In this document: positions 98-59,923 of the stretch, piece by piece | Layout of the letters: every line of letters begins with the position of its first letter | Numbering within the stretch: the first letter of the stretch is position 1 | Origin: Polyangiaceae bacterium | Lineage (GTDB): Bacteria; Myxococcota_A; Polyangia; Polyangiales; Polyangiaceae | Length of the DNA stretch: 64,000 bases | Direction: 5' to 3' | Assembly (NCBI GenBank): GCA_009781005.1 | Contig: WQYX01000017.1 | Coordinates: 1 to 64,000 of the forward strand | Translations under genes and position numbers: made by a program | The notes under the pieces: model-generated | The model's input: only the letters and a program-made list of their open reading frames with translations | Database searches by the model: none | What the model was told of the DNA's origin: nothing

Positions 98-186
98 TGA
101 GGGCAGGCCCCCGTGCCTGCCCTTCTGATCGATCCGTCAAATGCGTTTGTGTAGGGGCGGGCCCCCGTGCCTGCCCTTCTGATCGA
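98..186. repeat. Two copies of a short GC-rich palindromic repeat
   Basis: Two direct copies (101-122 and 155-176) of a hairpin with arms close to GGGCAGGC and GCCTGCCC around a CCCCGT centre, each followed by TTCTGATCGAT. They are about 54 bp apart. A related hairpin lies at 54292-54319. Only two units are present, so this is a dispersed palindromic repeat rather than a CRISPR array. The second copy lies just downstream of, and runs into the tail of, the minus-strand membrane protein gene and could act as a transcript 3' end. Confidence 0.6.
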
Positions 187-652
187 TTCGTACCCTGCGC
201 ACGAGCAGAGCGACGATGACCAGATTGACGCCGAGGACGAAGAGACGCGTCCACACCCTATGGTGAACGTAGCCAAGGACCTCGAACGGCAGGAGAGAGC
301 CGGTCGTAAAGACGACGACCCACGGTCCCCACCAACGATTGCGCCAGAGGGCCCATGCTTCGAAGGCGCAAAGAACGCTGTCGCTTGCGAGCGCCACGGC
401 CGTAAGAAAGACACCGCGGGGCGTGGTCGCACGAACGAAAAACTCGGCAAGCGCGATGCTCCATCCGCTCGAGACGTGGCGGCGGAGGACGTGGGCGAGC
501 TCGCCGAGACGACTCGACCAGTGGTTGACCACGCTCAGCCAAAGCAAAAGCGCGAACGCGAACTCGAGCGCGCCCTTGATTAGCTTGTAGCCGGCGATCG
601 CTCGCTGCTCGGCGCTCGCGCGGGCGAGCTCGTGGGACGTGCTGCCGATCAC
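137..652 (-). CDS. DUF2127-like small membrane protein
   Basis: About 171 aa with several hydrophobic helices (LEFAFALLLWLSVV near the N-terminus, a central alanine/valine-rich helix, and two C-terminal helices ending in NLVIVALLVRRVR). The YKLIKGALEF stretch near the start resembles the opening of DUF2127 inner-membrane proteins, whose function is unknown. I prefer the GTG at 652 to the ATG at 706, because a start at 706 would put the first codons inside the strong hairpin at 663-697. It follows the GH5 gene on the same strand but is separated from it by that hairpin. The C-terminal residues RHGGPPLHKRI are encoded by the palindromic repeat at 151-186, so the tail may have been altered by repeat insertion. 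Confidence 0.6.
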   Translation of the reverse strand: MIGSTSHELARASAEQRAIAGYKLIKGALEFAFALLLWLSVVNHWSSRLGELAHVLRRHVSSGWSIALAEFFVRATTPRGVFLTAVALASDSVLCAFEAWALWRNRWWGPWVVVFTTGSLLPFEVLGYVHHRVWTRLFVLGVNLVIVALLVRRVRIDQKGRHGGPPLHKRI

Positions 653-3384: not shown

Positions 3385-3560
3385 CGCGGGGCGGGCCTGT
3401 CCCTGGATTCCGGACCGAGGCGGCGAGAGCGCGTTTTGCGCGGGATTCGAGGCGCGAGGAGGAGGCGTACTGGAGTACGTCGACGACGAGCAACGAAGAA
3501 GACCGCCAAAACCCGCCGAGTCCGCCGACGTGGAGTCGAATTCAGGGACAGGCCCCAGCC
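3385..3560. repeat. Inverted-repeat element upstream of nrfHA
   Basis: A segment bounded by inverted copies of a CCTGTCCCTG(A/G)ATTC motif (left near 3396-3411, right near 3537-3553 reading GAATTCAGGGACAGG), with a GC-rich interior and no ORF. It abuts a family A palindrome to its right. I did not find a second full copy in the window, so the boundaries are approximate. Confidence 0.4.
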
Positions 3561-3706
3561 CGGACAATTCATGACGCGATTGCGGTAGAAGGCCGAGACC
3601 GCAGCGAGAAGGGCGCACGCCGTACCGCAGGACCGAGGCGTACTGTACGTACGCCGCAGGTCCGAGGAGCGCCGTACGACCTTCGCAGCAAGAGGATCGG
3701 CTCTTC
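3558..3706 (+). repeat. Family A palindromic element, truncated copy A1
   Basis: Closely matches the copy at 28989-29163 and, reversed, the complete copy at 12114-12290. It contains ATGACGCGATTGCGGTAGAA, the internal near-palindrome GGCGTACTGTACGTACGCC, and the closing TCGG..TCTTCTA. The right terminal inverted repeat is missing; the sequence passes straight into a family B terminus at 3707. Not coding. Confidence 0.75.
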
Positions 3707-12072: not shown

Positions 12073-12399
12073 TTAGAGCGTGTTTCCCAGCCGTTGCGAG
12101 CGAATCGAGGCTAGCCCGAATCATTCATGACGACTCCGCTTAGAAGGCCGATCCCTTTGCTGCAAAGGTCATACGGCGTTTCTCGGACCTGCGGCGTACG
12201 TACAGTACGCCTCGGTCCTGCGATACGGCGTGCGCCCTTTTCGCTGCGGTCTCGGCCTTCTACCGCAATCGCGTCATGAATGATTCGGGCTAGGGCGGGC
12301 GCGAGGAGCCCGCGTAAGCGTACTCTTCGTACGTGCGCAGGCACCGCAGCGCCCAACCGACGCATCGATTTGCGCAGCAGGCTGGGAAACACGCTCTTA
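12073..12399. mobile_element. Family B MITE-like element B1 interrupted by family A element
   Basis: Terminal inverted repeats GAGCGTGTTTCCCAGCC (from 12076) and GGCTGGGAAACACGCTC (to 12396) are flanked by TTA on both sides (12073-12075 and 12397-12399), a 3-bp TNA target duplication. Without the inner family A insertion it is 142 bp, matching copy B2 at 43287-43429 (143 bp). It has no coding capacity. The right-hand TTA is the stop codon (TAA on the minus strand) of the PHP/ATPase gene. The left end lies 15 bp upstream of the AlbA_2 gene start, so the element forms nearly all of that gene's leader. Confidence 0.85.
12114..12290. mobile_element. Family A palindromic element A2 nested in B1
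   Basis: 177 bp with perfect terminal inverted repeats GCCCGAATCATTCATGAC and GTCATGAATGATTCGGGC, flanked by TA (12112-12113, 12291-12292). The uninterrupted family B copy at 43319-43328 reads GAGGCTAGGG at this point, so insertion at CTAG with TA duplication is directly visible. This pattern is typical of IS630/Tc1-mariner transposition. The whole element is an imperfect palindrome and could fold into one long hairpin in RNA. Confidence 0.88.
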
Positions 12400-15105
12400 G
12401 AATTCATACATTTCCTTGCGTCGCATAAAGGCGGCGCGACCGCCCTCGAGGATCTCCGCGGCCTGCTCTCGGATGGGTGACACATCAATGGATCCTTGAT
12501 GGTCGAGCACACCACAATTTTCGTTCGCCGCGAGCACTCCGATCCATTCCGCATCACCGAAGACGGGGATATTTGCGTTGTGGGTTGAGAAAAAGAACTG
12601 CCGGCGAGTTTTCGCGTCGCGCAACTCACGCACGATGCGCTCCGCGATGAAGGCGTTGTCGAGATTGTCTTCGGGTTGATCAACAACAAGCGGATCCGAG
12701 TTGTCGAGCAAAAGCAGATGGAGAACTGCTGTGCATTGTTGGCCGATGGAAAGGCGTGCGAGGTCCTTGTACTGCTCTACCTCGTCCTCGCCACGCGCGA
12801 CATTGAGCTCGATGCCCACGTCATCTGGCAGCTCGATCGCCTCCAGCTCGAGCAATTTCGAATGGGGGAGCTTCACGAGCGCATCGGCGGTCATGGGAGT
12901 GATGCCATATTCGGAAGCCAGCTTTGCCGCTCCCTCGCGAATGGCGTGTGTGAGCGCTAGAGGCGTAATCTCTCGTTCTTCGATCCATGCCAGGCGCCTT
13001 TCGCCAACCCCCTCCAGCTTGCACCCGACAAGGAATTCCTTCAGCCTGCTGCGATCTCCCTCAATTCGGAGATCCACTCGGAGCTTGCCCTTCAATCGTT
13101 GATTCAACTTGGTTACCGCGGTTTGAAGGTTGCTTACACGCGCGCGTCGTAAATCAGAAAGCTCTGCAATAATCCCCTTCCGCTCTTGCTCGAGGCTTCC
13201 CATGAGCTGCGTGAGGGCACTCTTCTTGGCCTCGAGTGGCTTGATGTGTTCGATCTCTTGGGTGAGTCGACGATAGGCTTCTCCAACCTCGCGGCCACTC
13301 TTGCCCGCCATGCTGGGTAGCCCAACGAGAGCCTTCTCAAGCTCCTGCTCTCCAGACCTCATGGCACTCTGCCACGCAGCCAAAGGAGCATCGAGTGCCG
13401 CTTTGCCGGCCCTGATCGCCTCCTGGAGCGCGCTCTGGTGCCCAATGAATTCATTTCTCAGTTGTTCGAGTTCACCGCGGATCGCGATCAACGGGGAAGC
13501 ATCAGGAAGCCCTTCCAGGGCCTTGTCGTTCAAGAAGGTCAGGTCGGGGACACTCTCGCCGAACGTCCGCAGCCCCTCCTCGAGACCATTAACTTCTCGC
13601 CGAATGCGCTCCACGAGCTGTCGCTCACGTGCATAAAGAGGAATCTTGGCGAGCTTGGCCTCGATGACCAGATCTCGAAAGCCCTTGAGCTGTTCTCCGA
13701 GTCTCGGAAGGCGTGCGACTTTCTCGGTGACTTCGTCCAGGTCAATGCTAGCCTTCACGAGCTTTTGCGCATTGTCCGCGAGCTTTTTCCGAAGGGCCTC
13801 ACGCTGCTCGGAACCCATTGAATCGGCTGGCAAGAAACGCTCGAGCAAACGAGATCGGCTCTGTCCGTCCTGGGCCAGCTCGAAGATCTCGTTCTGACCG
13901 TACACTTCGATCTGCGGAAGGAGATCACGTGGGGCTTGCTGAGAGACCGCACCCTCTGCGTCGCGAACGATCGGAGGTTCGCCGTAACGCCGCGAGATCG
14001 TGAAACGATGGTCATGCTGCGTTGAAGAGCGAATCGTCAGTTCGATGGACCCAGCATGTTTGCCCAAATTTTCTTTGAGCATCTCCTGGTGAAGCTTTAG
14101 CGCCTGTTTGCCTTTGGGCGACAGTTCGAGGACGTAGCGAAGACACTCGATGAGGGTCGACTTACCTGTTCCGCGGCCCCCGATGAGCGCGTTCAGGTGC
14201 TCGGAGAAGCGCACCTCGACTCCGTCGAGATATCCTCCACAGATCCGCATCGATTCGAGCACACTATGCGGCTTGTCAGCCAAAGAAAGCCGGATACGCG
14301 ATTCAGGATCCAAGAATGCAATCTTGAGCGCATCGAGGCTCGGACGCGTCATCTTGATCCAAGTCGAGGCACTCGGGTTTTCCAAGTCGTCAGGCTCGGC
14401 AATATCCTTCGCATTAATGACGACGATCGGGCGTTCGCGACGATAGTCCGGATTCTTGTTTTCGATGATGCTCCGGTAGTTTTCGGGCAGGCTGGTCACC
14501 GGGCCAGGGATCTGCGCAACTCGAACATATTGAGAGTTCTTCCAAATGTGGGCAAGCCCGCCGCCATCCTTGTTCAGCCGGAGTAGTCCGTTGCCATTCG
14601 TGGCATGCGCCGCGTACCAGAAACCACCATGGTCATAGATTCTTTTAGCGAGCTCCAGGCAACCGAGGCGAGACGGACGAGCGCCATCCTCGACATCCGT
14701 CAGGTCTAGATTTCCCAAGTAGCGATTGAGCTGATCCGTGGGGGTCCTTTCTGAAAACAGGCAGACCATATGAATCTTCTCGGTCGATGCGATTTCGAAA
14801 CCGGGGAACACCACGATGCCCTTCGCCGAGAGCACCTCGCGCAGCTTGTCGACGCTCTCGACACTGCCGTGGTCGGCGACTCCGACCACACTGATCTGCA
14901 GCTCGAGGCACTTCTCCAGCAGGGCATGGTTGTAGCCCTCCTCATCGTGACCGTGGTCCTGCCCCCGATACATCCCTTGGTACTTGGAAGGGTTGACCTG
15001 GAGGGCGCATCGCCAAAACCGCGCAAACGAGTACTCTTCCCCCGAGGCAGTGGCTGGTTCTGGGGCGCTGGACGGGCTCTTTGCCGACTGGACTCGCTTG
15101 CTCAT
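12397..15105 (-). CDS. PHP-domain plus SMC/RecN-like ATPase (TrlF-like) in the BREX operon
   Basis: About 902 aa. The start at 15105 has GAAGGAAGG just upstream and overlaps the preceding gene's stop (ATGA). Residues about 25-260 resemble a PHP-type hydrolase domain (GQDHGHDEEGYNHALLEKC, VVGVADHGS, FPGFEIAST). Then come Walker A GGRGTGKST (about 307), a long charged helical region (about 400-720) and a C-terminal ABC-type half with LSIGQQCTAVLHLLLL and LVVDQPEDNLDN (about 805), followed by FFFSTHNANIPV. This layout matches the TrlF-like AAA ATPases. A nuclease-coupled SMC-like sensor is a reasonable guess, not shown. The last codon and stop come from the target duplication of element B1, so the C-terminus may have been trimmed. 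Confidence 0.83.
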   Translation of the reverse strand: MSKRVQSAKSPSSAPEPATASGEEYSFARFWRCALQVNPSKYQGMYRGQDHGHDEEGYNHALLEKCLELQISVVGVADHGSVESVDKLREVLSAKGIVVFPGFEIASTEKIHMVCLFSERTPTDQLNRYLGNLDLTDVEDGARPSRLGCLELAKRIYDHGGFWYAAHATNGNGLLRLNKDGGGLAHIWKNSQYVRVAQIPGPVTSLPENYRSIIENKNPDYRRERPIVVINAKDIAEPDDLENPSASTWIKMTRPSLDALKIAFLDPESRIRLSLADKPHSVLESMRICGGYLDGVEVRFSEHLNALIGGRGTGKSTLIECLRYVLELSPKGKQALKLHQEMLKENLGKHAGSIELTIRSSTQHDHRFTISRRYGEPPIVRDAEGAVSQQAPRDLLPQIEVYGQNEIFELAQDGQSRSRLLERFLPADSMGSEQREALRKKLADNAQKLVKASIDLDEVTEKVARLPRLGEQLKGFRDLVIEAKLAKIPLYARERQLVERIRREVNGLEEGLRTFGESVPDLTFLNDKALEGLPDASPLIAIRGELEQLRNEFIGHQSALQEAIRAGKAALDAPLAAWQSAMRSGEQELEKALVGLPSMAGKSGREVGEAYRRLTQEIEHIKPLEAKKSALTQLMGSLEQERKGIIAELSDLRRARVSNLQTAVTKLNQRLKGKLRVDLRIEGDRSRLKEFLVGCKLEGVGERRLAWIEEREITPLALTHAIREGAAKLASEYGITPMTADALVKLPHSKLLELEAIELPDDVGIELNVARGEDEVEQYKDLARLSIGQQCTAVLHLLLLDNSDPLVVDQPEDNLDNAFIAERIVRELRDAKTRRQFFFSTHNANIPVFGDAEWIGVLAANENCGVLDHQGSIDVSPIREQAAEILEGGRAAFMRRKEMYEF

Positions 15106-28988: not shown

Positions 28989-29163
28989 GCCCGGATATTC
29001 ATGACGCGATTGCGGTAGAAGGCCGAGACCGCAGCGAAAAGGGCGCACGCCGTATCGCAGGACCGAGGCGTACTGTACGTACGCCGCAGGTCCGAGGAGC
29101 GCCGTACGCCCTTTGCAGCAAAGGGATCGGTTCTTCTACGCGGAGTCGTCATGAATCATCCGG
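28989..29163 (+). mobile_element. Family A palindromic element A3
   Basis: About 175 bp, near-identical to copy A1 over the left and middle parts. The terminal inverted repeats are CCGGATATTCATGAC (left) and GTCATGAATCATCCGG (right). Both arms fold on each other through TAGAAG/CTTCTA and AAAGGGCG/CGCCCTTT. It occupies most of the gap between the divergent RND permease and beta-barrel genes. No clear TA duplication is visible at its ends, so the borders may have decayed. Confidence 0.8.
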
Positions 29164-41556: not shown

Positions 41557-41561
41557 AAAAA

Positions 41562-41680
41562 CCGCTTTCAAGTTGACGCGAGGTCGAGGCGGGGCCGAGG
41601 AGCGGACCGGAACAGCCTTGAAGGCTTTGAGGACCGCACCGCAGGCCCCGACGATGAGATCGCGGCAAATCGAAAGCGGG
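41562..41680 (+). repeat. Dispersed repeat family C, full copy
   Basis: Begins CCGCTTTCAAGTTGACGCGA and ends GCGGCAAATCGAAAGCGG, so the ends form a partial inverted repeat (CCGCTTTC/GAAAGCGG). The same sequence lies in reverse at 59791-59908. It fills almost the entire gap between the GT2 fusion gene and the export lipoprotein gene. Confidence 0.8.
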
Positions 41681-41702
41681 AAACGTGTATGATGGGTTGG
41701 CT

Positions 41703-42326: not shown

Positions 42327-43286
42327 ATGCTTCGTATCTTAAGAATATCGTCTCGGATTAGTATTCGTGTTGTTGGTTTTGCGCTCGTGGCGCTCGCCGC
42401 GAGCAGCAGCGGTGGCTGCGGAGGAGGAGGCGGCGGGGGAGCTGGCTCAACGCAGATCACGGGCAGCATCGGTTGCGACGACGGCGGAGGCACGTCACCT
42501 GGAACAACCTCAAGTGGCATCGCCGCAGGAACCGCTACGAGCAAGTCACTGACGGTCAACGGGCAAAATCGTACGTACGTGCTCTACACACCGAGCACCT
42601 ACGACGGGAAAACGCCCTTTCCGGTCATTCTCGCTTTCCACGGCGACGGCGGTGATGGCGCAAGCCTGCGCGCTTGGTTCAACCTGGAGCCCACGGTGGC
42701 CGAGCAGGCAATTATCGTTTACCCCGACGGAATCAATGGAACGTGGGATATCGATGATATCGCTGGGCTCACCAACGACGTTGCATTCGTGGATGCCATC
42801 CTTGCTGATTTGAATAGCAACATGTGCATTGCTCAGCAGCGGCTCTACGCAACAGGCATCTCGCGCGGCGCGTATTTCACCAACCAGATGGTCTGCCGGA
42901 GCAAGAACACGTGGAGAGCCATCGTGACCCACGCGGGCGGCGGCCCGTATTCAGCGATCGATGCGGACGAATACGATTCGAAGGGCAACTTAAAGTGCAC
43001 AAACCAACCGCTCGCTGCGCTTCAAGTGCATGGCGACGCGGATGACGGTGTGGCTGTAAGCGAGGGGATGAAATCGCGGAGTTTCTGGTGCGATGTCAAC
43101 GGTTGCCAGGGCTGCACGTCGGAGTGGAAAGCCTCCCCGGATCCCACTCAGCCCGTGAGCCCCTCGCCATGCATGACCTACGCGGGGTGCTCAAAGCCTG
43201 AAGTATGGTGTGAAATTCCCGGCCTCGGACACACGTTCTGGGACCAGGCCCCACAAGTCACTTGGGGTTTCTTCTCGCAGAACTAA
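42327..43286 (+). CDS. Secreted PHB depolymerase/feruloyl esterase-like hydrolase (lipoprotein)
   Basis: 319 aa, 18 bp after the export gene. The N-terminal signal ends SSSGGC followed by a long glycine run. The alpha/beta hydrolase core has VILAFHGDGGDG (oxyanion region), GISRGAYFTN with the nucleophile Ser, QVHGDADDGV with the Asp and PGLGHTFWDQ with the His, plus several cysteines. Related enzymes are LpqC-type esterases that remove acyl or feruloyl groups or cleave polyesters. It may trim acyl groups from the exported polymer. Its TAA stop is the target duplication of element B2, so the C-terminus ends exactly at the insertion. Confidence 0.85.
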   Translation: MLRILRISSRISIRVVGFALVALAASSSGGCGGGGGGGAGSTQITGSIGCDDGGGTSPGTTSSGIAAGTATSKSLTVNGQNRTYVLYTPSTYDGKTPFPVILAFHGDGGDGASLRAWFNLEPTVAEQAIIVYPDGINGTWDIDDIAGLTNDVAFVDAILADLNSNMCIAQQRLYATGISRGAYFTNQMVCRSKNTWRAIVTHAGGGPYSAIDADEYDSKGNLKCTNQPLAALQVHGDADDGVAVSEGMKSRSFWCDVNGCQGCTSEWKASPDPTQPVSPSPCMTYAGCSKPEVWCEIPGLGHTFWDQAPQVTWGFFSQN

Positions 43287-43429
43287 GAGCGTGTTCTACA
43301 GCCGTTGCGAGCGAATCGAGGCTAGGGCGGAGCGCGAGCACCGGGCGGAACAGGCGTTGATGCCTTTGAGCACGGAGCGCAGCGCCCAACCGACGCATCG
43401 ATTCGCGCAGCAGGCTGCCCTACACGCTC
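43287..43429. mobile_element. Family B MITE-like element B2
   Basis: 143 bp with terminal inverted repeats GAGCGTGTTCTACAGCC and GGCTGCCCTACACGCTC, flanked by TAA on both sides (43284-43286 and 43430-43432), a TNA target duplication. It is the uninterrupted version of B1 and shows the CTAG into which element A2 inserted there. No coding capacity. Confidence 0.85.
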
Positions 43430-43441
43430 TAAGTAGCCCTC

Positions 43442-59724: not shown

Positions 59725-59790
59725 GACGGATTTCCTCCTTCACGACATCGTTTGCCGGTACGCCTCGCAGGGCCAAATTAGTTGCGTTGA

Positions 59791-59908
59791 CCGCTTTCGA
59801 TTTGCCGCGATCTCATCGTTGGGGCCTGCGGTGCGGTCCTCAAAGCCTTCGAGGCTGTTCCGGTCCGCTCCTCGGCCCCGCCTCGACCTCGCGTCAACTT
59901 GAAAGCGG
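59791..59908 (-). repeat. Dispersed repeat family C, full inverted copy
   Basis: Reverse complement of the copy at 41562-41680 over its whole length with few differences, with ends CCGCTTTCGATTTGCCGCGA and CGTCAACTTGAAAGCGG. It lies between two minus-strand genes. Confidence 0.8.
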
Positions 59909-59923
59909 TTTTATCGAAAGCGA

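Follow-up and report, generated by a model that had tools for sequence, protein, structure and literature searches.

A 3-bp TNA duplication is a trait of the IS5-family groups IS1031 and ISL2. As far as the available excerpts of the cited articles describe them, several systems come close to the one reported here. A 3-nt target is mentioned as a trait of the IS1031 group (PMC2516522), and the eukaryotic NuwaII group of PHIS (PIF/Harbinger-ISL2EU-Spy) transposons targets C-TNA-G and duplicates the 3-bp TNA; bacterial IS5 falls within the PHIS tree, with its target given as ANT rather than TNA (PMC4482050). QMITE1 and QMITE2 of Coxiella burnetii form stable hairpins, lie mostly in 3' regions and extend a few base pairs into the 3' ends of genes (kdgK, recN, ruvB), and the direct repeats of QMITE2 measure 7-9 bp and differ for each copy (PMC5896051, PMC10969869). 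The enterobacterial repeats ERIC, RU-1, and RU-2 are short, palindromic, and mobile, and some are found at gene 3' ends (PMC2759123, PMC2229807). MITEAba12 of Acinetobacter is mobilised by an IS that is present alongside it and shares its ends, generates a 9-bp target duplication (TSD) with no clear sequence rule, and is reported to disrupt and truncate genes (PMC6382973).

The family described here, family B, is very probably a non-autonomous MITE on which IS5-family transposases act in trans, inserting at C-TNA-G on or near pre-existing stop codons and leaving the encoded proteins unchanged. Three copies are present in the window, by which we mean the whole 64-kb stretch of Polyangiaceae DNA that was analysed. 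The copies and the genes adjoining them are as follows.

42387..43286, + strand: gene ending at B2, a Peptidase_S9 / extracellular PHA-depolymerase-like esterase of 299 aa, full length by its homologues
43284..43286, + strand: left TSD copy of B2, TAA, also the stop of the 299-aa esterase-like gene
43287..43429, + strand: B2, a 143-bp family B element (GAGCGTG...CACGCTC) with inverted ends GAGCGTGTTCTACAGCC / GAGCGTGTAGGGCAGCC
43430..43432, + strand: right TSD copy of B2, TAA
12073..12075, + strand: left TSD copy of B1, TTA
12076..12396, + strand: B1, a family B element of 321 bp with a second repeat nested inside
12115..12289, strand not given: family A repeat nested in B1, CTAG duplicated (12111-12114, 12290-12293)
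12397..12399, - strand: right TSD copy of B1, TTA, which is the TAA stop of the minus-strand gene
12397..14973, - strand: gene ending at B1, a TrlF-family AAA-like ATPase of 858 aa
46498..46738, - strand: third family B copy, 241 bp, with unequal flanks TCA / TAA, intergenic and off any stop

The coordinates and gene ends bear out the original prediction that the TSD is the exact stop codon of the adjoining gene at both B1 and B2. The length of B1 is due to the family A repeat nested in it. Its host gene matches NF045780 with 522.9 bits (cut-off 350), and the match reaches profile position 943 of 944; the same gene (12397-14973) has a weaker match to a model of the anti-phage protein Ppl and is thus a possible defence gene. 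A 37-bp GGGCAGGCCCCCGTGCCTGCCC repeat also occurs twice, 54 bp apart, at window positions 101-191.

Structure, target site, and putative transposase

The genome under study, that of the window (G000; 4.77 Mb in 199 contigs), contains 456 family B ends at no more than two mismatches, versus 13 for the reversed pattern. The sample in which copies were paired comprised the window and 80 further stretches, 40 picked around perfect ends and 40 not, for a total of 1.654 Mb. It held 85 paired copies, of which 64 have identical TNA flanks, 8 have unequal TNA flanks, and 13 have flanks of other kinds. In another species of the same genus (G009), 34 copies were found in 0.56 Mb picked around ends, 24 of them with identical TNA duplications. 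Copies with a flank other than TNA on at least one side (13/85 in G000, 9/34 in G009) were left out of the counts. Genes were called with our own codon scores on the empty-site sequence rather than with a published gene finder. Family B is mostly 143/144 bp long (47 of the 62 copies flanked by TNA left and right), with longer forms of 188-190 bp and copies of 241-355 bp, some of them carrying a nested repeat. The inverted 17-bp ends read GAGCGTGT....CAGCC, and the 18th base differs, G at one end and T at the other, in 62/62 copies with TNA on both sides. Family B thus has the features of a MITE: it is short, bears terminal inverted repeats and no transposase of its own, has a TSD at most copies, and shares its ends with IS of the same genome.

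TNA triplets make up 2.9% of positions, and the left and right triplets are identical in 64/85 copies as direct, not inverted, repeats, which rules out that the TNA belongs to the element itself. With the copies removed, the consensus of the empty sites is C-TNA-G (C at -1 in 51/72, G at +3 in 59/72). Because TAA, TGA, TTA, and TCA all spell a stop on one of the two strands, any TNA duplication could serve as one. That much is simple arithmetic without biological content; what matters is whether the triplet is the in-frame terminal codon of a real gene. By the same token, TAA and TGA stops in the right context are legal targets. At one gene end (L085:18319-18607) two family B copies lie in tandem, as TAA-element-TAA-element-TAA, an outcome to be expected if insertion regenerates the CTNAG target; this pair was counted once in the site tables (30 distinct stops) and twice in the copy tally (31 stops among 72 sites).

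That an IS5-type transposase elsewhere in the genome probably moves family B, as originally proposed, is well supported by the presence in the genome of IS5-family genes with the same ends and by the shared target. The IS5-type transposase genes located at contig ends terminate in ...GTCGAACACGCTC or ...GGTAAACATGCTC, and the right ends of these IS carry the terminus of family B or the CATG variant of it; in G009 the variant is CACC. TNA follows next in 11 of 16 right ends, of which one side only was read, and G follows in 8 of those 11; in one likely IS copy pair (C75/C85) the duplication appears to be ACA instead of TNA, a point against our best explanation. The scanned transposase fragment, which is 171 aa long and internally deleted, matches the NF033580 IS5 family model (140 bits, cut-off 110, E 9e-41) as well as PF13340 (DUF4096) and PF01609 (DDE_Tnp_1), and transposases of this type were found at six loci in named genomes at 51-62% identity. 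In the draft assembly all copies are cut at contig ends or broken, and among 58 genomes (G000 and 57 relatives) only fragments were found, with neither an intact transposase gene nor a full-length autonomous IS. Contigs that start or end inside an IS5-type transposase gene are C4, C12, C37, C41, C62, C78, C85, C89, C107, C176, and C182 in G000 and C87, C89, and C104 in G009; the draft assembly breaks at these multi-copy elements.

Placement at gene ends

Genome copies and their flanking trinucleotides were tabulated, as the original prediction had suggested, and an excess at stop codons was found in both species. Among the 64 exact-TSD copies of the G000 sample, 28 have the TSD on a stop, and stops account for only 971 of about 47,400 TNA sites. 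Copies occupy 28/971 stop sites, 30/6,876 noncoding sites, and 6/39,544 coding sites (stop versus noncoding, odds ratio 6.8, p 2e-11). The excess is also seen in a test free of gene calling, in which an open frame of at least 200 codons ends at the TSD in 23/64 copies versus 238/3,200 motif-matched controls (7.4%; p 2e-10). In G009, stop-codon placement was observed for 12 of 25 copies with TNA flanks, and a 200-codon frame ends at the TSD in 9/24 versus 58/1,200 controls. The placement of family B on stop codons is beyond chance. Splitting the G000 sample gave 27/62 copies at stops in the chosen half and 3/10 in the unchosen half; relative rates should be independent of the sample choice, though the unchosen half is small (n=10), and its rate was counted against our best explanation. 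The 10/27 CTWAG stops that carry a copy in the G000 sample do not represent genome-wide occupancy, because half of the sample was chosen for having copies.

Comparison of sites with the same motif showed where the preference lies. CTNAG sites are used in 16/74 cases at stops, 7/36 at +1..30 nt, 3/59 at +31..100 nt, 8/237 in other noncoding DNA, and 2/1,115 in coding DNA (G000), and 49 of 72 copies lie within 30 nt of a stop. Across both species, motif-matched stops are much hotter than positions +31..100 nt (pooled OR 5.4, z 5.0) and than other noncoding or remote intergenic DNA (pooled OR 10.1, z 9.6). They show no significant excess over the adjoining +1..30 nt (OR 1.28, z 0.7 in G000; 2.67, z 1.5 in G009; pooled 1.53, z 1.39), where an element aimed specifically at stop codons would use the stops more than their same-motif neighbours. 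That stops act as a distinct signal over and above the adjoining 3' flank is accordingly not shown. The proposed preference for TAA at gene ends therefore holds only in part: copies do cluster at gene ends genome-wide, and what they prefer is C-TNA-G within about 30 nt of those ends, not TAA as a stop.

In the mechanism that we favour, IS5-family transposases with ends of the same sequence would move family B in trans. Insertion at C-TNA-G duplicates TNA, as seen at most copies, the TSD copy beside the gene keeps the stop in frame, and the G...C termini rebuild TAG stops across the junction, as they do in 6/6 cases. In both species, copies gather at stop codons and within the ~30 nt that follow. 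The likeliest cause of the concentration would be a supply of motifs at gene ends combined with loss elsewhere and some real insertion bias toward 3' ends.

Survival and active bias carry nearly equal weight. If insertion took place at CTNAG anywhere and selection removed nearly all copies except those at gene ends, the near emptiness of coding CTNAG sites would follow, as would the contrast among tandem gene pairs, in which stops are occupied in 1/301 cases where the genes overlap or lie less than 30 nt apart versus 15/353 in wider pairs. Survival by itself has a little under an even chance of being the whole account; alone, it leaves unexplained both the scarcity of copies in convergent spacers and the remote placement of another repeat family, family A, which has ends around CCCGGATCATTCATGACG and duplicates CTAG. 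Apart from the copy nested in B1 (12115-12289), its positions in the window are:

3552-3701: family A repeat
28997-29138: family A repeat

Family A lies in remote intergenic DNA in 10 of 14 cases, which indicates that such DNA tolerates MITEs, and within 30 nt of a stop in 2/14 versus 49/72 for family B (p 2.5e-4). It is under the same selection as family B and is without the gene-end bias.

Such tolerance argues for machinery that is attracted to the 3' ends of genes, whether by transcription or translation termination, by supercoiling, or by a host factor, with CTNAG picking the exact base. Convergent intergenic DNA, in which insertion endangers no promoter, points the same way: at more than 30 nt from a stop, G000 has 4 copies where the stop rate predicts 16.4, and G009 has 0 where it predicts 8.0, though these spacers may contain genes overlooked by the gene caller. 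The share of copies on stops is not higher with distant nearest neighbours (8/24) than with close ones (10/29), and in 29 of the 42 stop copies of the two species it is the T-type end that faces the gene (p 0.02). Against active targeting, none of six readable autonomous IS flanks (TTA/TCA) is placed on a stop codon, versus 13/34 for the MITE (p 0.15), and the older half of the copies, by identity to the consensus, is richer in stop copies (11/24 vs 7/29), as survival would give, although this age split is ambiguous. On balance, active targeting is a credible account with somewhat less than an even chance.

A second family, the ACCGCTTTC family of about 121 bp with ends ACCGCTTTCAAGTT / ACCGCTTTCGATTT, is unrelated to family B and likewise found on stops. 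Its positions in the window are:

59790-59909: ACCGCTTTC-family repeat
41558-41685: ACCGCTTTC-family repeat

In this family, 27/52 paired copies lie within -6..+3 of a stop, and in 21/52 the stop consists of a host TG or TA and the element's first A; a consistent target duplication was not seen in the 52 paired copies. Pfam matches were obtained for 9 of the 10 host proteins scanned, several of them complete (Hsp33, acyl-CoA dehydrogenase, YchF). Six matches in G009 were compared: four end no more than three residues from the same place without the element, and two are too distant or cut off. It is tempting, if unlikely on present evidence, to suppose that an IS5-type system is physically guided to gene 3' ends, that a palindromic C-TNA-G target and G...C termini keep all three stops, and that the ACCGCTTTC family arrived at the same solution independently. 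If true, this would amount to a stop-preserving safe-site strategy in bacteria.

A selected function, in which copies are kept because a long 3'-end hairpin acts as a terminator or stabilises the mRNA 3' end, appears improbable. The RNA of B2, folded with its TSDs, forms one long hairpin (-78.5 kcal/mol, z -5.7), and the position of copies within 30 nt of stops and their slight orientation bias would suit such a role; against it, no U-tract is evident in the sequence at either end of B2, and stop copies are no closer to the consensus than other copies.

Host genes and their stops

Family B neither creates stops nor truncates genes; it occupies pre-existing stops, and the proteins are unchanged. 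Since the target duplication copies host DNA, the in-frame stop predates the insertion. Homologues of the gene at B2 end within four residues of its C-terminus at 19/19 loci, none of which has family B at the stop, and the nearest of them (G009, 64% identity) has its TAA at the same place. The three homologues of the gene at B1 (27-40% identity) all end within 8 residues, being 2, 6, and 8 residues further. Six genes end in a TAG made of the TA of the TSD and the terminal G of the element, and in 6/6 the empty site already reads TAG (register -1), so that no stop was created or lost. The terminal bases of family B, G at the start and C at the end, match the flanks of its target, so CTNAG is restored at both junctions and TAG stops are rebuilt; neighbouring proteins are spared because stop codons fit the target and the element ends rebuild the stop.

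Apart from the genes at B1 and B2 there are 28 stop genes, of which 27 were scanned with Pfam (the L085 gene was left out); 18/27 gave matches, several complete to the C-terminus; intact hosts include NusG, RecA with its C-terminal domain, biotin carboxylase, PelG, and a TldD-type peptidase. Among nine G000 stop genes with relatives in G009, five (L079, L083, L099, L112, which is NusG at 96% identity, and L132:3701) have a relative that ends no more than two residues off without an element at its stop. The relative of the L085 gene has a family B copy 25 nt beyond the stop, that of the L101 gene has one at its own stop, and the L094 gene has a distant match only. The relative of L132:8755 is 10 residues longer, with a family B copy 3 nt after the stop, and was counted against the best explanation. 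Sharing of elements between the two genomes is over-counted here, because the G009 DNA was chosen around elements.

The alternative in the original prediction, that family B shortened both genes and supplied their stops, is scarcely credible: its one support, the coincidence of TSD and stop, is not evidence of truncation given that any TNA reads as a stop on one of the two strands, and against it stand the host origin of the duplication, the completeness of housekeeping proteins at such sites, and the C-terminus comparison that had been proposed as its check, which refutes truncation at B1 and B2 as far as homologues of 27-64% identity allow.

Comparison with known systems

In the open-licence literature searched, within the portions of it that were available, nothing was found that describes a MITE placed on stop codons via TNA duplication, and the accessible parts of PMC3196728, PMC4853749, and PMC3119063 hold nothing bearing on stop-codon placement. 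Family B illustrates how a mobile element can spread through a genome dense with genes while doing little damage: the motif it targets overlaps stops, and its termini restore them. It also offers a natural test for gene-end sensing by bacterial transposons.

The family B system resembles the TNA groups of IS5 (IS1031 / ISL2) in its matches to NF033580, DUF4096, and DDE_Tnp_1, its 3-bp TNA TSD, and its ends beginning with GAG; to these it adds the C/G flank preference and the gene-end placement, and it is known here from transposase fragments only. The CTNAG target with TNA duplication is shared with NuwaII, which differs in being eukaryotic and for which stop-codon placement is not reported in the available text (PMC4482050). 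By their description in the excerpts, QMITE1 and QMITE2 are, like family B, bacterial MITEs of 3' regions, for which neither a fixed target triplet nor an exact stop register is reported. The ERIC, RU-1, and RU-2 cases, as far as described in the same form, fuse into the frame and alter the C-terminus, whereas family B leaves the C-terminus unchanged (PMC2759123, PMC2229807). MITEAba12, from the part of the article at hand, is like family B in being mobilised by an IS that shares its ends, but has a 9-bp TSD and is reported to disrupt genes (PMC6382973). The CTNAG/TNA target (NuwaII) and MITEs of 3' regions (Coxiella) are thus already known, and what the present analysis adds is the exact stop register and the preservation of the stop.
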